DNA from: an uncultured Clostridium sp.
GTDB taxonomy: Bacteria; Bacillota; Clostridia; UBA1212; UBA1255
Assembly (NCBI GenBank): GCA_900555605.1
Contig: USLW01000017.1
Coordinates: 1 to 15,241, forward strand
DNA: 15,241 nt
Reading direction: 5' to 3'
The position numbers were made by a program, and so were the translations under genes. This document shows positions 2,859-11,583 of the stretch, piece after piece; position 1 is the first letter of the stretch; each line of letters starts with the position of its first letter. The notes beneath the pieces were generated by a model. That model saw only the letters and a program-made list of their open reading frames with translations. It was not told the origin of the DNA and did not search any database.

Positions 2859-5399
2859 ATGGAAAAATCTATGAAAGAATGGATTGCACGCTTTCGTGAA
2901 AAGGATTTAGAAAAACAAAGCGTTTCAGAACATATTCTAAGTGTTGCCGCTTTCTGCCGCTGCTGGGGAAAGCAGATTGGAATTGCACATTTGGCGGAAT
3001 TGGCAGGTCTTGTGCATGATATGGGAAAATATTCAGATGATTTTCAGAAGATGATATTGCAGGAATATGAATCCGCTCGCAGCGGGGCTGCCCCAAAGGA
3101 CAGGCGGCCCAAACAGAAGGTTGATCACGGGGTATACGGCGCCTTGTATATCCATCTGCATTTTCATACCCAGGGAGAACCCATCGTGTTGTATACGGCA
3201 GAGCTTCTATCCATGGCGGTTTGCTACCATCACGGCGGGCTGGAGGACTATATCAACCAGGAGGGAAAACAGCCGCTTATAGATCGTATGCTGCGGCACC
3301 GCAGGGATGAAGCGTATTGCCAGGCCAAAGAGCGCTATTTTTCAGAGATCTGCACGGAGGCGTATCTTCAGTCGCTGTTTGACGAGGCCTGCAAAGAGGT
3401 TGCGGCGTTTCTGGAAAAGCTGAATGAGGCTCCGGGTTATGCTGTGCCTCATAAATGCTTTGCGATGCATTTGCTTCTGAAGTATTTATACAGTGTTTTG
3501 ATTGACGCGGACCGATGTAATGCGGCGCAGTTTGAGGCTGGGACTTTGACGCAGCATCAGGAACCTGGACCGACACAGATCTCAGGACAGACGCCGGCGC
3601 AAAGGGAGGCGGCGCTTTCGTGCCCGCCTTGGGAGGTATGGCTTCAGCGGCTGGAGGAACGGCTGCAGATGTTTCAGAGTCAGAGGGCGGGAAGTCTGCT
3701 TGCGCAGCAGATCAGAGGGCTTCGGGCAGAGATTTCCGACCGTTGCCGGGAGTTTGCGGAGCAGGCAGAGGGAATTTACAAACTGTCCGTTCCCACAGGC
3801 AGCGGAAAAACCTTGGCGAGTCTCCGATTTGCGCTGCGCCATGCCGCATTGAAAAAGAAAAAACGGATCCTGTACGTGCTGCCGTTTCAAACCATCATTG
3901 AACAGAACGCAGAGGAGGTACGGAAGGTGCTGGACTGCGGAGAGGCGCTTTTGGAGCACCACGCCAATGTTCTGATGGACAAAGAACAAGAACAGGAAGG
4001 GGGATCCTCCTATTGGGAACGATACCGGATTTTAACGCAGCGCTGGGACGCGCCCATCATTTTCACCACCATGGTACAATTTCTAAACACCTTTTATGCC
4101 GCCGGGACGCAATCCATGCGGCGTCTGCACAACCTGTCGGATACGGTATTTGTTTTCGATGAGATTCAGGCTATTCCGCTGAAATGCATCGACCTGTTTA
4201 ACTGCGTCATCAATTTTTTGAGCAGAATCTGCGGCGGAACGGTGATTCTATGTACCGCAACACAGCCGGAGCTCAATCTGGCCCATGTGGCGCCGATTTT
4301 TGGTGCGCAAAGTGAAATGATTCCCGAGGTTTCCTGCTATTTTCAAAAATTTAAACGCGTTGGCGTCGTCGACCGCACAAAACCGAAACTCAGTATTCCG
4401 GAATTTTGCGATTTTACAGATGAAATCAGAGCACATCACACAAGTCTGCTGATTGTGATGAATACAAAGGCCTGTGCCAATGCGGTCTACAACGCCCTGC
4501 GCGAGCGCTGCCGGCTTGGAAAGGGCGAACCGGTGCATATTTACTATTTAAGTACGAACCTGTGTCCGCGCCACAGAATCAGGGTGCTGCATAAAATTAA
4601 AAAAAATTTAGCGGCAAAGCGCCCGCTGATCTGTATCAGCACGCAGCTCATCGAAGCAGGCGTGGACATCAGCTTTTCCTGTGTCATCCGCCAGCTGGCC
4701 GGCCTTCCCTCCATTGCTCAGGCGGCCGGCCGCAGCAACCGCAGCGGAGAAAATCCGGTTGAGAATGCTTTTGTATATATTGTGGATCTGGTCGAGGAGC
4801 GTTTGAATAATCTGCCGGAAATTGCGCGAGGAAGCGAAGCAACGATGACGCTGCTGGCACGGTTTCGGGAACACCCTGCACATTATGATTGTGATCTATT
4901 GTCTCCCGCCGCCATCAGAGAATATTATCAGATTTATTATGCCAAAACAGATTCGAAATATCGTATCCGCGGCTTGCAGGATATGTACGGACTGCTTTCT
5001 GACAACGGCACAGCGGTTGCAGCAAGAAACGGCAGGTTCGGAACTGGTTTTTCTCAGGAGGTTTCTCAGGAGGAGCGCAGCTTTTGCCGCCTGCTGCTGC
5101 CCTTTATGTGCCGAACCGCTGCGGAAAATTTTCATGTCATTGATGAAGATAACACGCCTGTTCTGGTTCCGTACGGCCGCGGGAAAAAAATCATTGCACA
5201 GTATATAGGCGCGGCAGCGCTGCAGGAGCGGCAGGCACTGCTCCGGGCAATGCAGCAGTATGTGGTCCAGATCAATTCCTCGGCCCTGAAGCGGTTAGAG
5301 ATTGAGACCCGGGACGGCGTGCATATTTTAAAGGAAGGATATTACCATCAGGTTTTGGGGGTGGTAACGGAAAAGTATCTGGATCCGGTCTTTGGTTAA
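2859..5399 (+). CDS. cas3: Cas3, HD nuclease-helicase of type I-C CRISPR
   Basis: Cas3 is recruited by Cascade after R-loop formation, then nicks and unwinds target DNA with 3' to 5' degradation. The N-terminal HD nuclease shows H25, H53-D54 (LVHDMGKYSDDF), K57 and a YHHGG metal-site segment. The SF2 helicase has Walker A VPTGSGKT (about 309-316), a DEIQ Walker B (about 434-437), motif III TATQ (about 466) and motif VI QAAGRSNRSG (about 620-629). Length (846 residues) is normal for I-C Cas3 and all key motifs are intact. ATG 2859 has a close GGAAGA; ATG 2871 is an alternative start. It has its own promoter and is separated from cas5c by a 224-bp gap holding a minus-strand small RNA gene, so cas3 and the remaining cas genes are probably separately controlled. 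Confidence 0.96.
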   Translation: MEKSMKEWIARFREKDLEKQSVSEHILSVAAFCRCWGKQIGIAHLAELAGLVHDMGKYSDDFQKMILQEYESARSGAAPKDRRPKQKVDHGVYGALYIHLHFHTQGEPIVLYTAELLSMAVCYHHGGLEDYINQEGKQPLIDRMLRHRRDEAYCQAKERYFSEICTEAYLQSLFDEACKEVAAFLEKLNEAPGYAVPHKCFAMHLLLKYLYSVLIDADRCNAAQFEAGTLTQHQEPGPTQISGQTPAQREAALSCPPWEVWLQRLEERLQMFQSQRAGSLLAQQIRGLRAEISDRCREFAEQAEGIYKLSVPTGSGKTLASLRFALRHAALKKKKRILYVLPFQTIIEQNAEEVRKVLDCGEALLEHHANVLMDKEQEQEGGSSYWERYRILTQRWDAPIIFTTMVQFLNTFYAAGTQSMRRLHNLSDTVFVFDEIQAIPLKCIDLFNCVINFLSRICGGTVILCTATQPELNLAHVAPIFGAQSEMIPEVSCYFQKFKRVGVVDRTKPKLSIPEFCDFTDEIRAHHTSLLIVMNTKACANAVYNALRERCRLGKGEPVHIYYLSTNLCPRHRIRVLHKIKKNLAAKRPLICISTQLIEAGVDISFSCVIRQLAGLPSIAQAAGRSNRSGENPVENAFVYIVDLVEERLNNLPEIARGSEATMTLLARFREHPAHYDCDLLSPAAIREYYQIYYAKTDSKYRIRGLQDMYGLLSDNGTAVAARNGRFGTGFSQEVSQEERSFCRLLLPFMCRTAAENFHVIDEDNTPVLVPYGRGKKIIAQYIGAAALQERQALLRAMQQYVVQINSSALKRLEIETRDGVHILKEGYYHQVLGVVTEKYLDPVFG

Positions 5400-5440
5400 A
5401 AAGGGGCAGGACCCTTCCTGCGGAGAGAAAGGGCCCTGCC
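5396..5440 (-). terminator. Intrinsic terminator of the minus-strand CRISPR-like small RNA
   Basis: Read on the minus strand, GGCAGGGCCCTT pairs with AAGGGTCCTGCC in a 12-bp stem with one G-U pair and a 12-nt loop, followed at once by CC and five T. On the plus strand the hairpin is not followed by a T-tract, so it is oriented to end minus-strand transcripts. It abuts and slightly overlaps the cas3 stop codon. Confidence 0.85.
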
Positions 5441-5487
5441 AAGCGTATAACTAAAAATAACAATTTCAATCCACACCTTTTGGCGAC
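5396..5487 (-). ncRNA. CRISPR-repeat-derived small RNA targeting the cas5c leader (CreR-like)
   Basis: Minus-strand gene of about 92 nt. It begins with a 25-nt shortened repeat (5463-5487): GTCGCC, an AAAA loop, then GGTGTGGATTGAAAT. CGCC can pair with GGTG around AAAA, so the stem needed for Cas5c processing may survive with four pairs instead of seven. GGTGTGGATTGAA is identical in the array repeat at 11449-11481, so the 5' handle is preserved. The guide TGTTATTTTTAGTTATA (5462-5446) equals the minus strand at 5607-5591 at 16 of 17 positions, and that site is preceded by TTC (5610-5608), the known type I-C PAM. The mismatch is at guide position 12, one of the every-sixth bases flipped out in type I effectors. 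Pairing stops after position 17, as in CreR/CreA guides, which bind without triggering cleavage. Inferred role: Cascade-dependent autorepression of the cas5c operon. Alternative: a plain antisense RNA, since it is also complementary to the cas5c mRNA leader. Confidence 0.75.
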
Positions 5488-5493
5488 ATATAA

Positions 5494-5502
5494 ATTATAC
5501 CA
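5494..5502 (-). promoter_or_regulatory. Extended -10 promoter of the CRISPR-like small RNA
   Basis: On the minus strand TGGTATAAT is a perfect extended -10 element. The expected start, about 7 nt downstream, falls on the G at 5487, which is the first base of the shortened repeat. No good -35 is present, but extended -10 promoters can work without one. It is divergent from the cas5c promoter at 5546-5574. Confidence 0.7.
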
Positions 5503-5545
5503 TAAATTTTTGAGAAAAAATTGAAAAATTTGTATAGACAGAAGA

Positions 5546-5574
5546 TTGACAGACTAATCCTATTTTGCTATATT
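5546..5574 (+). promoter_or_regulatory. Promoter of the cas5c-cas2 operon
   Basis: TTGACA (5546-5551), 17 bp, TATATT (5569-5574): close to consensus. The predicted start near 5581 leaves a 40-nt leader with AAAGGAG (5609-5615) before ATG 5624. The 17-bp match to the small RNA guide (5591-5607) lies between the start site and this ribosome binding site, and the TTC PAM overlaps its upstream edge, so effector binding there would block transcription. Confidence 0.8.
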
Positions 5575-5623
5575 ATGTTTGTGCGTGTTATATAAATAAA
5601 AATAACAGAAAGGAGTATGACTG

Positions 5624-6379
5624 ATGGTGGAGATGAAAACAGTATTCAAAAATCAGATCTGTTTCCGGGCAACCGGCAGGTATGCCCTTTTCACAGATCC
5701 CGTCAGCCGGGTCGGCGGCGAAAAAAGCACGCTGCCGATCCCGACCTATCAGGCCCTGAAGGGCTTGACGGAATCCTGCTATTGGAAACCCAGTATTATC
5801 TGGTATATTGATCAGGTGCGCATAATGAAGCCTATCCGGACGGAGTCAAAAGGTGTCCGGCCGCTGCGTTACGACAGTCCGGCGAATGACTTGGCATTTT
5901 ATTGCTATCTTGCGGACGTGGAATACGTGGTAAAAGCACATTTTGAATTTAACCGGAACCGACCGGAGCTGCAGAACGACTGGAATGAGAACAAACATTA
6001 TTTTATTGCAAAACGCTGCATTGAAAAGGGCGGCAGGAGAGATCCGTTCCTGGGGACGCGGGAATGCCAGGCATATATCGAGCCGGCAGCGTTTACAGAA
6101 GGGACAGGCTATTATGACCGCATGGGGACGATTGAATTCGGGTTTCAATACCATTCCATGTGCTATCCGGATGAGAATGGCAGGGGACAGCTGACGGCAA
6201 AATTTTGGTATCCGAAAATGGAAAACGGCGTGGTCACCTTTTTACGGCCTGAGGAATGCCCAAAGGAGCGGTATCTCTACCGTATGCAGCAAAAAGGTTT
6301 CCAAAAGGGCGTGAATTTTTCCGGAACAGAGGAACCGGAGCTGCTTTCCGGATATGAGATCGGCGGTGCGGTGCAATGA
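5624..6379 (+). CDS. cas5c: Cas5c (Cas5d), pre-crRNA endoribonuclease and 5'-handle-binding subunit
   Basis: In type I-C, Cas5c replaces Cas6: it cuts pre-crRNA at the base of the repeat hairpin and stays bound to the 5' handle. The family catalytic triad (Tyr, Lys, His) appears as Y42 in the PIPTYQALKG segment and K124-H125 in NENKHYF. The N-terminal RAMP fold start (FRATGRYALFTDPVSRVGGEK) and the GTRECQAYIEP segment are typical. Length 251 is somewhat longer than the usual 220-240. ATG 5624 has GGAG at 5612-5615, 8 nt away. It is the first gene of the operon; its TGA overlaps the next ATG (ATGA). The gene appears intact, so crRNA processing should be possible. Confidence 0.95.
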   Translation: MVEMKTVFKNQICFRATGRYALFTDPVSRVGGEKSTLPIPTYQALKGLTESCYWKPSIIWYIDQVRIMKPIRTESKGVRPLRYDSPANDLAFYCYLADVEYVVKAHFEFNRNRPELQNDWNENKHYFIAKRCIEKGGRRDPFLGTRECQAYIEPAAFTEGTGYYDRMGTIEFGFQYHSMCYPDENGRGQLTAKFWYPKMENGVVTFLRPEECPKERYLYRMQQKGFQKGVNFSGTEEPELLSGYEIGGAVQ

Positions 6380-7299
6380 GCTGGATTACCTATCTATATC
6401 GCACCTATGAAAATGTCATGCGGGCCGACCCGCGGGAACGGGAGGGGCTGCTGCCCATTGCCCACACCACCCAGAATGCAAATATCACCGTTTTTTTAGA
6501 TGAAAAAGGAAATTTTATCGGAAGTCGCGTCATGGAAAAGCCGGGAAAGGGCTCCCATGACGAACGAAGTACCCTGATCCCCTGTACAGAGGCCTCTGCA
6601 GGGCGGTCCGGCATTTTTCCCGCACCGCATCCGTTATGCGATAAGCTGCAGTATTTAGCAGGCGACTATCAGAAATACGGCGGCGCAAAAGGCGATCTTT
6701 TTCATAAAAAATATATGGAACAGCTCACGGCCTGGTGCGAATCTCCCTATCAGAACCGCTGTGCATGTAAGATTTTAGCATACTTAAAAAAATCGACGCT
6801 TATCGCCGATTTGGTGGATGACCGCACACTGATATGTGACGGGCGGAACCGGCTTCTGGAAAAATGGGACGGGGATAAGAAGCAGATGCCTGCGATTTTT
6901 CGGAGCCTGTCTGCGGGTCTGGGGCAATTCGATGCATTTATCCGGTTTTCAGTAGATGGCACCGATGTATGGACCGATGAGGAAATTCAGCGGGATTTTA
7001 TTGCATATTACCTATCGCTTCAGACAGGCGCGGATCTGTGCTATGTTACCGGGAAGGAGACGGCATGCTCTTCTAACCATCCGAAAAGGATCAGAAACAG
7101 CGGTGATCAGGCGAAACTGATTTCTGTAGGCAATAAAAACAGATTGGCCTATGAAGGCCGCTTCCTGGAGCCCGGACAAGCCGCCCAGGTGGGCTATGAG
7201 GTTTCCCAGAAGGCACATAACGCTTTAAAATGGCTGATTCAAAAACAAAGAAAAGGTGTAGCTTCTGTGGACGGTCGGAGAATGAAGTCGGATTCCTGA
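6376..7299 (+). CDS. cas8c: Cas8c (Csd1) N-terminal part, truncated by an insertion
   Basis: Cas8c is the large subunit of type I-C Cascade; its N-terminal half recognises the PAM and the 5' handle end. The first about 290 residues are a normal Csd1 N-terminal half, including CYVTGKETACSSNHPKRIR, the SGDQAKLISVG segment and VGYEVSQKAHNALKWLIQKQ. Directly after that, where family members continue with a GYRNGDQ-like segment, the DNA switches to a clpX-like sequence in another frame. The last about 18 codons here are therefore nonsense (RKGVASVDGRRMKSDS) before TGA 7297-7299. The start ATG overlaps the cas5c stop by 4 nt. The normal family protein is about 570-650 residues; this one is 307. It could be a dead fragment, a split subunit, or be rescued by a -1 slip in the A-rich tract near 7240-7256. 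Confidence 0.9.
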   Translation: MSWITYLYRTYENVMRADPREREGLLPIAHTTQNANITVFLDEKGNFIGSRVMEKPGKGSHDERSTLIPCTEASAGRSGIFPAPHPLCDKLQYLAGDYQKYGGAKGDLFHKKYMEQLTAWCESPYQNRCACKILAYLKKSTLIADLVDDRTLICDGRNRLLEKWDGDKKQMPAIFRSLSAGLGQFDAFIRFSVDGTDVWTDEEIQRDFIAYYLSLQTGADLCYVTGKETACSSNHPKRIRNSGDQAKLISVGNKNRLAYEGRFLEPGQAAQVGYEVSQKAHNALKWLIQKQRKGVASVDGRRMKSDS

Positions 7300-7379
7300 T
7301 TACGGGAATGAGCGGCTACATTTGCGACAGCTGTGCTACCCAGGCTTATGAGATCACTCAGGAAGCATTGGGAGAAGGC
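7230..7379 (+). other. Inserted clpX-like 5' end (zinc-binding domain) inside cas8c
   Basis: About 50 codons starting at ATG 7230 read as the ClpX N-terminal C4 zinc-binding domain: C10-x2-C13-x18-C32-x2-C35, with CSFCGRSENEVGFLITG and GYICDSCATQAYEITQEA. The wording (VGFLITGM and CDSCATQAYEI rather than the clostridial LIAGP and CDECI) is that of Bacteroidetes ClpX, including the MADSKTKKR start as I remember it. Csd1 proteins do not carry this domain. At the left junction the string ATGGCTGATTCAAAAACAAA serves both as Csd1 codons (KWLIQK) and as the clpX start, which suggests joining through short shared sequence. The right junction is near GEG/LGAS, about 7379. Confidence 0.85.
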
Positions 7380-8348
7380 TTGGGAGCGTCCCTGCTGCGC
7401 AGTGAACCGGCATATTGGTATACGGCCGAGGATATGGCGGTTCGCTTCAATAAGGCGATTTCCGGATACCGGGCCGAACTGGATTATCAGTCTGAGGTTG
7501 CGCTGATGGGCCTGGACGCGGCTACCACCGGCCGGCTCTGCGTTGTATTTTACCGTGAATTTCGCGGGAGCGAAGCAGGGAATTTGATTGAGCGGGTAAA
7601 AAGATGGCATGAAACATGTTCATGGCGGCAGCGCGTTTGGCTGGCAAAGGAGCAAAAACGCGTCTCTTTTATTGGCGCACCTTCTCCGGAAACCATTGCT
7701 TTGGCGGCATACGGTACAGAGCAGGAGGGTCGTCTGAAGGCAAATGAGAAATTGGCGGCCAAAACCATAGAACGCCTTTTGAAATGCATCTCTGAAGGTA
7801 CTCCGATTCCGTATGATATTGTCTGCGCCGCGGTAAACAATGCCTGCGGACCGCAGCAGTATATAAACAGCGATCATTGGGATACGGTGGTGAGGGCAGC
7901 GTGTGCGCTTACAAAAAAATATCGTTCTGAAAAATATGGGGAGGAATGGAATGTGGATATCAATGAGACAAAGGATGTTGCTTATAACTGCGGCAGATTG
8001 CTTGCGGTGGCGCACCAGATTGAGCTGCGGGCCCTTCGGGCTTCCGGAGACAAAAGGACGACGACAAATGCGATCCGGTATTTGCCGCGTTTTCGCACCG
8101 CGCCCTGCGCCACATGGCCTGTCATTGTGGAGCGCGTAATTCCTTATGCAAATAAATTGGGAATTCTTGCCAATGATCTGCGGAAGTTAATCGGAAAGAT
8201 TTCGTCTGAAATTCCGCAGGAGGCGTTTGCTGCTGCGAAAGATCTGGACGGCCGTATGCTTTTAGGCTTTGATGCACAAAGAAACGTTTTTTATAACGCA
8301 AAAAATAAAGGAGGAGATCACGATGAAGATTCTGCAGAACAAGATTGA
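7230..8348 (+). CDS. cas8c: ClpX-type zinc finger fused to the Cas8c (Csd1) C-terminal part
   Basis: A 372-residue frame made of two unrelated parts. Residues 1-50 are the ClpX-type zinc-binding domain, which in ClpX dimerises and binds adaptors and substrates. Residues from about 51 to 372 are the C-terminal half of Csd1 (TAEDMAVRFNKAISGYRAEL, VALMGLDAATTGRLCVVFYREF, FIGAPSPETIALAAYG, YCGRLLAVAHQIE-like segment, TNAIRYLPRFRTAPCATWPV). It lies -1 relative to the Cas8c N-part and overlaps it by 70 nt. A ribosome binding site for ATG 7230 is poor (AGAAGG about 16 nt away), so translation would rely on coupling or a frameshift. Together the native Csd1 parts total about 610 residues, so little of Csd1 was lost. 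The 3' end overlaps cas7c by 26 nt and contains the separate Cas11c start at 7953. Confidence 0.85.
   Translation: MADSKTKKRCSFCGRSENEVGFLITGMSGYICDSCATQAYEITQEALGEGLGASLLRSEPAYWYTAEDMAVRFNKAISGYRAELDYQSEVALMGLDAATTGRLCVVFYREFRGSEAGNLIERVKRWHETCSWRQRVWLAKEQKRVSFIGAPSPETIALAAYGTEQEGRLKANEKLAAKTIERLLKCISEGTPIPYDIVCAAVNNACGPQQYINSDHWDTVVRAACALTKKYRSEKYGEEWNVDINETKDVAYNCGRLLAVAHQIELRALRASGDKRTTTNAIRYLPRFRTAPCATWPVIVERVIPYANKLGILANDLRKLIGKISSEIPQEAFAAAKDLDGRMLLGFDAQRNVFYNAKNKGGDHDEDSAEQD
7953..8348 (+). CDS. cas11c: Cas11c, small Cascade subunit from an internal start in cas8c
   Basis: Type I-C systems make their small subunit, which lines the non-target strand groove, from an internal start within cas8c. 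Here a strong Shine-Dalgarno GGGGAGGA (7938-7945) sits 7 nt before an in-frame GTG at 7953, giving a 131-residue product that begins VDINETKDVAYNCGRLLAVAHQIE. That is the point where family Cas11c proteins start, just ahead of the conserved GRLLAVA segment. An ATG at 7951 is out of frame. This start lies downstream of the clpX-like insertion, so Cas11c should be made even if Cas8c is not. Confidence 0.75.
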   Translation: MDINETKDVAYNCGRLLAVAHQIELRALRASGDKRTTTNAIRYLPRFRTAPCATWPVIVERVIPYANKLGILANDLRKLIGKISSEIPQEAFAAAKDLDGRMLLGFDAQRNVFYNAKNKGGDHDEDSAEQD

Positions 8349-9213
8349 TTTTTTGATGACCGTAACCGCAGCCCACGCAAACCCCAACGGAGACCCCTTG
8401 GATGGAAACCGGCCGCGTGCCATAGCAAACGGACTTGGTGAAATTTCCGATGTCTGCCTGAAACGGAAGATCCGAAACCGTCTTATGGACATGGGAGAGG
8501 CTGTTTTTGTGCAGTCCGACGACAATAAAACAGACGGATATAAATCCCTGAAGGACCGCGCTGCCGGCAATTCCGAACTGATGGCGGCGGAAAAGGCGAA
8601 GAAAAAAGGACAATACGCTGAAATCGCATGCAAAAGCTGGATCGATGTCCGCAGCTTCGGACAGGTATTTGCTTTTAAAGAAGATAAGGCGAAAGAGGGT
8701 CAGGAGATCAAAGGCGGCGGCGTCTCGGTGGGCGTGCGCGGGCCGGTATCGATTCATCCGGCCTTCAGCGTAGACCCCGTTGATATCGTTAGTACGCAGA
8801 TCACCAAAAGCGTAAACAGCGAGTCGAACGAAAAGGCGAAAAAAAGCTCTGATACTATGGGAATGAAGCACCGCATCCAGTTCGGGCTGTATCTGGTAAA
8901 GGGCAGCATCAATGTTCAGCTGGCTGAGAAAACTGGTTTTACGGAAGCGGATGCGGAGAAGATCAAGGAAGCGCTGCGGACGATTTTTGTAAATGACAGT
9001 TCCTCAGCCCGGCCCGAGGGCAGCATGGAGGTCCACACGCTGTATTGGTGGCGGCATAATAATAAGATCGGACAATATTCTTCGGCGAAGGTGCATCGCA
9101 GTGTGCAGGCAACAAAAAAGCCACAGGTGGATTTTCCCTCTTCTATTGACGATTACGAGATTAACGTGATTCCGCTGGAGGGGCTGTGCCTGGAAACCTA
9201 TGAAGGAATATAA
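8323..9213 (+). CDS. cas7c: Cas7c (Csd2), Cascade backbone subunit
   Basis: Cas7c forms the helical backbone that holds the crRNA spacer; its thumbs displace every sixth base. The N-terminal DFLMTVTAAHANPNGDPLDGNRPR block with NPNGDP is diagnostic of Csd2, as are the IDVRSFGQVFAF and SVGVRGPVSIHPAFSVDPV segments. ATG 8323 is preceded by GGAGGAG (8310-8316); the upstream ATG at 8269 has no ribosome site and would add 18 unlikely residues. Length 296 is normal and the gene is intact. Start overlaps the cas8c/cas11c 3' end; its 3' end overlaps cas4 by 14 nt. Confidence 0.96.
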   Translation: MKILQNKIDFLMTVTAAHANPNGDPLDGNRPRAIANGLGEISDVCLKRKIRNRLMDMGEAVFVQSDDNKTDGYKSLKDRAAGNSELMAAEKAKKKGQYAEIACKSWIDVRSFGQVFAFKEDKAKEGQEIKGGGVSVGVRGPVSIHPAFSVDPVDIVSTQITKSVNSESNEKAKKSSDTMGMKHRIQFGLYLVKGSINVQLAEKTGFTEADAEKIKEALRTIFVNDSSSARPEGSMEVHTLYWWRHNNKIGQYSSAKVHRSVQATKKPQVDFPSSIDDYEINVIPLEGLCLETYEGI

Positions 9214-11448: not shown

Positions 11449-11481
11449 GTCACCGCCCCTGCGGGCGGTGTGGATTGAAGT
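11449..11481 (+). CRISPR. Solitary type I-C CRISPR repeat (array without spacers)
   Basis: One 33-nt repeat: GTC, a 7-bp perfect stem ACCGCCC/GGGCGGT around CTGC, then the I-C handle GTGGATTGAAGT. It stands in the correct place and orientation after cas2 and the leader. The 3' end reads GAAGT where I-C repeats normally end GAAAT or GAAAC, and where the cas5c-side copy at 5463-5487 has GAAAT. Degenerate 3' ends are typical of the leader-distal repeat, so this may be the product of collapse between the first and last repeats. No second repeat follows. Confidence 0.8.
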
Positions 11482-11583
11482 TGAAAAGGCACAAAAAATC
11501 AATTTGGAATCCCATGTCATCGCCTACATAGGCAGTAATCGTTTGAAGTATATTTTCGTTGACGATTTATGGCATGTTGTCCT
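11482..11583. other. Spacer-less stretch after the solitary repeat
   Basis: No further repeat is present before the convergent regulator gene. The plus strand is open from 11408 to TAA 11585-11587 without a good start codon; its last part reads INLESHVIAYIGSNRLKYIF and on to VVL. It resembles the tail of a real protein but I do not recognise it. It may be sequence joined to the repeat when the array was deleted. Confidence 0.4.

Follow-up and report, generated by a model that had tools for sequence, protein, structure and literature searches.

The minus-strand element between cas3 and cas5c

The window analysed here is a stretch of 15,241 nucleotides (nt) from an uncultured Clostridium sp. 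(contig USLW01000017.1, assembly GCA_900555605.1) that carries a type I-C cas operon, part of a system of clustered regularly interspaced short palindromic repeats (CRISPR). The gap between cas3 and cas5c is 224 nt long. Its minus strand holds a candidate guide RNA gene that matches the cas5c leader and is the subject of this report. The features concerned are the following.

5494..5502, minus strand: extended -10 element of the small RNA gene, TGG-TATAAT, in TGGTATAAT, with TATAAT at 5499-5494
5463..5487, minus strand: shortened type I-C repeat of 25 nt, GTCGCCAAAAGGTGTGGATTGAAAT, 6 nt after TATAAT
5441..5462, minus strand: guide, 22 nt to the terminator stem, TGTTATTTTTAGTTATACGCTT
5398..5440, minus strand: intrinsic terminator, stem-loop 5440-5405 followed by CCTTTTT (5404-5398)
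5591..5607, minus strand: target (seed-matched protospacer), TGTTATTTTTATTTATA, in the cas5c leader
5608..5610, minus strand: TTC protospacer-adjacent motif (PAM), opposite GAA in the Shine-Dalgarno sequence GAAAGGAG of cas5c
5546..5574, plus strand: predicted cas5c promoter TTGACA-N17-TATATT, 11/12 consensus matches
5624..6379, plus strand: cas5c (PF09704), the gene proposed to be repressed

An earlier note on this DNA had described a self-contained minus-strand gene with a promoter, a shortened repeat, a guide and a terminator, and all four parts were located at base resolution. Read along the minus strand the gap contains, in order, TGGTATAAT, six bases, the GTCGCCAAAAGGTGTGGATTGAAAT repeat, the TGTTATTTTTAGTTATACGCTT guide, a stem-loop and CCTTTTT. 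Transcription is predicted to begin at 5487, the initial G of the repeat. The repeat hairpin consists of a 4-bp stem (CGCC/GGTG) and an AAAA loop, and the handle, TGGATTGAAAT, is intact. The stem-loop of the terminator has 15 pairs (hairpin -28.2 kcal/mol), and the RNA from 5487 to 5396 folds with a z score of -4.5. A gene resembling a CRISPR RNA (crRNA), with a degenerate repeat and a spacer, is therefore found beside the cas operon and outside the array, as is the case for the regulatory RNAs known as CreR. A search of the element against Rfam returned no relevant family and a single microRNA match below threshold.

TTC is the PAM of type I-C systems, and type I effectors are not known to read every sixth guide base; the sequences compared here fit both. 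Guide positions 1-17 (5462-5446) were compared with minus-strand positions 5607-5591, and positions 1-11 and 13-17 match while position 12 does not (16/17). The match and its adjoining TTC (5610-5608) are those that the note had given. A limited, PAM-flanked match to a cas leader, as expected of CreR, is thus present (a run of 17, TTC, the cas5c leader). The target lies between the predicted cas5c +1 (about 5581-5583) and the Shine-Dalgarno sequence, again as proposed, roughly 17 nt before the start codon in a predicted leader of about 41 nt. Since TTC is the antisense of GAA in GAAAGGAG, the PAM appears to be borrowed from the antisense of the Shine-Dalgarno sequence. The promoter placed ahead of this leader carries little weight by itself, because the scan that found it (1 site) averages as many in shuffled sequence (mean 1.0).

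The claim that chance is unlikely despite the AT-rich DNA held up: none of 20,000 shuffled guides reached a run of 17 on the eight TTC sites of the gap. On both strands of the whole window there are 619 TTC sites, and the next best run of the guide is 4. Across these sites a run of 17 was reached by 0/2,000 shuffled guides and a run of 11 by 2/2,000. The shuffles in this test, in the guide probabilities below and in the -10 hexamer and terminator scans of the related elements permuted single letters, not dinucleotides.

Guide-target pairing across type I-C loci

Loci for comparison were gathered by Cas5c and comprised 53 from one genome scan, 103 longer stretches and the window (157 in all), of which 146 were distinct as told by a 120-nt stretch of cas5c. 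The longer stretches are the surroundings of the stronger matches in four overlapping whole-genome searches (398, 391, 344 and 250 genomes). Subtype was judged by the Cas5c and Cas3 matches alone, and L053 and L165-L167 are distant. The gap between cas3 and cas5c could be measured in 141 loci; it was shorter than 100 nt in 117 and at least 100 nt in 24. Twenty of the 24 long gaps contained a solo-type repeat, the exceptions being L035, L041, L129 and L038, whose gap of 8 kb was left out of the repeat search. A match to the repeat handle was present in 58 loci, a figure obtained by subtracting the 83 matchless loci from the 141 in which cas3 was located. Once handles with mismatches, and those with a same-strand neighbour within 150 nt, had been dropped, 46 solo elements in 46 loci remained near cas3 or cas5c; 19 stand in a gap between the two genes and the other 27 ahead of cas3.

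Guide and target covaried strongly among these loci, and the covariation withstood register, PAM, swap and shuffle controls. For 26/46 elements, leaving positions 6, 12, 18 and 24 out of account gave a run of 11-20 at a TTC-flanked site upstream of the cas genes of the same locus. Under the five other skip registers only 5-6/46 elements scored, with no skip 5/46, and when guides were swapped between loci 10/2070 pairs. The 26 matched guides fall into 21 families (single linkage, 17 of 24 letters) and come from named Bacilli and Clostridia records and from one Psychrobacter (L044). These results support, at the level of sequence, the CreR-like reading put forward in the note.

The position of the mismatches is consistent with this. 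Among the 26 matches, position 6 is mismatched in 21 and position 12 in 20, with none at 1-5 or 7-11; the latter zeros follow by construction, so that the register control serves as the test. Positions 6 and 12 are mismatched at a rate (77-81%) close to the 66% seen at positions 19-24, which is what unread bases should show. When guides were shuffled 300 times each, p was 0.01 or less in 29/46 elements. A search that made no use of a PAM gave a best run of at least 11 in 30 elements, preceded by TTC in 23, CTC in 3, TAA in 3 and CCC in 1. Other triplets in place of TTC yielded 0-3 elements each (CTC 3/46, TAA 3/46, ATG 2, and ATC, CCC and CGA 1 each). A different PAM as the general rule was rejected on these counts, and all three TAA loci have a TTC site as well.

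L144 (66%) and L145 (64%), whose Cas5c proteins are the two closest to that of the window in the genomes searched, share the layout of the window and carry other guides. Their targets are 16 and 14 nt from cas5c, respectively; L144 is one of the 26 and L145, which has one more mismatch, at position 9, is not. L134, which was dropped by the neighbour filter, matches too (TTC, a run of 15, mismatches at 6 and 12). Eight of the 26 (the window, L144, L166, L019, L032, L165, L008 and L010), and also L134, have their target no more than about 21 nt from where cas5c or cas3 is estimated to begin, and in L167 the distance is 58 nt; these estimates may err by tens of nt. In L019, from Indiicoccus explosivorum, the target is 14 nt ahead of cas5c. 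The target lies further upstream, with no clear open reading frame (ORF) in between, in ten (L152, L154, L147, L196, L023, L226, L246, L018, L230 and L239). One of the ten, L018 from Lysinibacillus boronitolerans, has its target about 210 nt ahead of cas5c. The target of L002 has no clear place among these groups.

Architecture shared by related elements

Terminator-like hairpins of -8 kcal/mol or lower beside a T-rich tail followed 42/46 elements (24/26 of those matched); the mean over shuffled sequences was as low as this for 2/46 elements. This count comes from a folding scan; a simpler hairpin scan found 22/46. A -10-like hexamer (at least 5/6) preceded the repeat in 27/39 elements whose repeat start could be placed, and in 14 of the 27 it was exactly 6 nt away, a spacing that had no control of its own. 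Shuffled sequences equalled the observed hexamer score 30% of the time on average, and since they reach it so often the hexamer alone says little.

The commonest repeat length was 25 nt, with 12 such repeats including that of the window. In these twelve, 46/48 cells of the 4-bp stem pair, with 16 double changes. The covariation score of the stem was 0.883, against a shuffled mean of 0.290, and 0/500 shuffles were as high; the score should be read with the fact that repeat starts had been set to favour pairing and that some of the 12 rows are close kin. An exact second repeat core 15-75 nt downstream was found in 0/46 elements, the search being for exact cores and not for degenerate second repeats. 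The two flanking repeats usual in CreR were thus not seen among these elements in the search for exact cores.

Relation to known systems

CreR RNAs have reportedly been described for types I-B, I-E and V-A in a 2023 article in Cell Host & Microbe. Shmakov and colleagues, writing in Nucleic Acids Research in 2023, are said to have predicted that standalone repeats and mini-arrays regulate cas genes, mostly in type I. Those elements reportedly share with the present one solo repeats near cas and partial matches to cas promoters, and they differ in being, often, mini-arrays of two repeats where there is one here.

According to reviews, CreR is widespread in type I and type V-A (PMC12737573) and directs the Cas effector onto cas genes (PMC12737573, PMC12948488). 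The window element has in common with it a crRNA-like RNA beside cas, a limited PAM-flanked match to a cas promoter or leader and, as we propose, use of the effector as an autorepressor (PMC12737573, PMC12948488). It differs in subtype (I-C), in having a single shortened repeat whose first base is the predicted +1, in a terminator that replaces the second repeat and in the PAM taken, in the window, from the Shine-Dalgarno antisense. CreA, the guide of the CreTA module of Haloarcula type I-B, represses together with Cascade through guide positions 1-5 and 7-11 adjoining TTC, positions 6 and 12 being free (PMC8501985). This seed next to TTC, with free sixth and twelfth bases, would also be that of the present element. 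Here, the target is the cas5c leader instead of a toxin promoter, and no separate protein toxin gene fits into the leader in the window.

The note had further suggested that one repeat with a terminator may be a distinct I-C design. In favour of this, every one of the 46 elements lacked an exact second core and 42 had a terminator-like hairpin; the format as such is not confined to I-C, for the type I-B creA of Haloarcula hispanica is published with one repeat and a T-rich terminator at its end (PMC8501985). Two repeats are consequently no absolute requirement of the wider kind, and the ectopic repeats of CreA number one or two (PMC9458426). The principle is known from CreR and CreA, and a one-repeat creA is on record; what may be new is the I-C variant. 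No report of a CreR in I-C was present among the literature matches listed. PMC12737573 has no whole-word mention of I-C, PMC9458426 mentions neither I-C nor a terminator, and the main text of PMC13131331 does not mention CreR. Some I-C elements may already stand in the original CreR or mini-array papers.

Proposed mechanism

Our interpretation, drawn from sequence comparison, is that the element is probably a CreR-type, Cascade-guided autorepressor of the I-C cas genes in a one-repeat-plus-terminator form (probability about 0.84). A small RNA would be transcribed from TGGTATAAT with its predicted start at the repeat. Cas5c is the repeat-processing enzyme of subtype I-C, and the intact handle and covarying stem suggest that it would cleave the minimal 4-bp hairpin, or bind to it, and leave TGGATTGAAAT as the handle. 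Cascade would then load the RNA and bind the target through positions 1-5, 7-11 and 13-17, with 6 and 12 unread. As judged from CreA and CreR, pairing that stops after about 17 nt would be too short to license Cas3 and would leave the target DNA occupied and uncut. Occupancy between +1 and the Shine-Dalgarno sequence would, by analogy with CreR, lower transcription of cas5c and the cas genes downstream. The result would be feedback on the level of Cascade, which array crRNAs or anti-CRISPRs might relieve by competition. Subtype I-C is not known to possess a Cas6 that would remain bound to a 3' repeat hairpin. One repeat and a terminator may for that reason suffice, which would explain the lack of an exact second repeat core.

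Several observations weigh against this interpretation. In type I-B, mature RNA was far scarcer and repression weaker with a one-repeat creA than with the two-repeat form (PMC8501985). In the minimum-energy fold of the window RNA, the handle pairs with the 3' half of the guide and the repeat hairpin is unformed; this modelled fold could compete with the hairpin. Cascade may be non-functional in this contig, because the sequence of Cas8c is split (see below). Twenty of the 46 elements have no TTC-flanked run of 11. Six of these have shorter runs next to TTC (L016 10, L124 9, L125 9, L145 8, L004 7 and L028 7), L011, L013 and L022, all upstream of cas3, have runs of 13-14 adjoining CTC, and L045 has a run of 15 adjoining CCC. 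Ten are without a convincing target (L052, L231, L114, L029, L183, L247, L119, L139, L253 and L006). The target strand is opposite to the window's type in 13/26 matched loci. Finally, in 6/26 a small non-cas ORF separates target and cas (L250, L015, L232 and L227 by script, L234 and L044 by eye), and from this arrangement the repressed gene at those six loci may not be a cas gene.

Details of some of these loci are of use in judging them. The arrays of L011, L013 and L022 have variant repeats, and a comparison of the sequences makes CTC a possible PAM variant there. Among the ten targetless elements, L052 has a run of 9 adjoining CTC, some resemble near-intact array repeats, and a repeat-like stem follows L006. 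The small ORFs lie, with cas5c on the plus strand, at 1555-1871 in L250, 9370-9786 in L015, 1786-2008 in L232 and from 1801 in L234. Some of the intervening ORFs look by eye like helix-turn-helix or transposase OrfA-like proteins; from their sequences they are possibly Cascade-silenced regulators or CreTA-like modules.

Alternative explanations

Two alternatives are about equally likely, and we consider both improbable. In the first, the locus is a CreTA-like module whose antitoxin guide represses a toxin gene, any regulation of cas being incidental. CreA has the same design (PMC8501985), and the target precedes a small ORF instead of cas in the six loci named above. The window target, however, is placed about 17 nt before the cas5c start codon and behind the predicted cas5c promoter, and a predicted leader of about 41 nt could not accommodate a separate gene for a protein toxin. 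Targets similarly close to an estimated cas5c or cas3 start in L144, L019, L166, L032, L008, L010, L165 and L134 argue the same way. A creT gene under a guide-matched promoter was not found in the window, the target being in the cas5c leader, and the CreTA assignment was rejected.

In the second alternative, of similarly small likelihood, cas5c is regulated by the RNA without the help of Cascade, either through antisense pairing with the mRNA or through transcription interference. In the window, the guide RNA could pair directly with the cas5c mRNA, to whose leader it is complementary beside the Shine-Dalgarno sequence, and the small RNA gene points away from cas5c and lies some 60 nt upstream of the cas5c promoter. 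Antisense pairing, though, needs neither an adjoining TTC nor a sixth-base skip nor an intact repeat handle. In addition, the target is on the cas-sense strand in 13/26 matched loci, where the RNA cannot pair with the cas mRNA because it has the same sense. Plain antisense regulation was rejected on the strength of the PAM, the skip register, the handle and these sense-strand targets.

A little less probable still is a decayed, functionless relic of an array whose match to the cas5c leader arose by chance in AT-rich DNA. The repeat does stand alone and measures 25 nt against 33 nt in the array, the guide is AT-rich, and 10/46 solo repeats elsewhere have no convincing target. A relic would nevertheless be hard to reconcile with pairing that skips every sixth base and adjoins a TTC PAM in 21 guide families, with the failure of shuffled guides, with a shortened hairpin that covaries and with recurrent terminators; the register and swap controls already contradict it, and it was rejected. 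Least probable of all is a host- or prophage-encoded RNA anti-CRISPR (Racr) titrating Cas proteins: solitary repeats behind a promoter do act as Racrs, among them RacrIC1 with its solitary I-C repeat (PMC10651486), but a Racr is a virus- or plasmid-encoded repeat mimic that needs no guide match to cas, and this candidate was set aside as improbable, the element being inside a cas operon and its guide having a PAM-flanked match to that same operon.

If Cascade-guided autorepression is the function of the element, RNA-guided autorepression of cas genes would extend to subtype I-C, and dozens of natural guide-target pairs would show what an I-C seed needs (6 and 12 free, 1-5 and 7-11 fixed). Anti-CRISPRs or abundant crRNAs would be predicted to raise I-C cas expression in these bacteria, and compact I-C repression tools could draw on the elements for a short, naturally occurring guide format with a single repeat. 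A wider proposal seems to us evenly balanced between right and wrong. In it, I-C has its own class of self-silencing guide RNA genes across Bacilli and Clostridia, reaching Psychrobacter, each made of a promoter, a minimal 25-nt tetraloop repeat at +1, a short guide and a terminator; a side branch would silence small helix-turn-helix genes between element and cas. This would be the leanest natural type I guide format, one repeat being enough without Cas6.

The cas operon and array of the window

The remaining features of the window are listed below. Families were assigned to cas3, cas5c, cas8c and cas7c, and cas4, cas1 and cas2 were identified solely by inspection of the ORF list.

2859..5399, plus strand: cas3, with HD and helicase domains
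6376..8348, plus strand: cas8c in two pieces, the first of which (6376-7299) matches Csd1 profile positions 1-256
7230-8348, plus strand: second piece of cas8c, with a ClpX-type zinc finger and Csd1 profile positions 291-559
8323..9213, plus strand: cas7c (PF05107)
downstream of cas7c: cas4, cas1 and cas2
11449..11549, plus strand: canonical CRISPR, with a full repeat, a spacer-sized stretch and an apparent degenerate terminal repeat

The second cas8c ORF opens with a C4 zinc finger of the ClpX type (PF06689, E 3.5e-16; window 7230-7380). In the two relatives that were read, L004 and L145, ordinary Cas8c sequence, some tens of residues long, stands in its place. A join made during assembly or a recent break may account for the split. 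Among the matches listed, identity reached at most 53% for the first half of Cas8c (best 120 of 203) and at most 51% for the second (best 120 of 2175), and an intact Cas8c could fall outside the length limits of both half-protein searches. The cluster of the identical Cas5c was found on 21 contigs.

The full repeat of the array is 33 nt long (11449-11481) and, allowing up to 3 mismatches, is the sole match to the array repeat in the window, so an array with at least two full repeats is not present. The degenerate terminal repeat was judged by eye to lie at about 11516-11549, and from this sequence the array seems to hold one spacer. At the other end of the window, positions 1-507 comprise the end of a GC-rich, IS30-like transposase gene adjoining AT-rich DNA, and positions 696-995 a second transposase-like C-terminal fragment, both recognised by eye.

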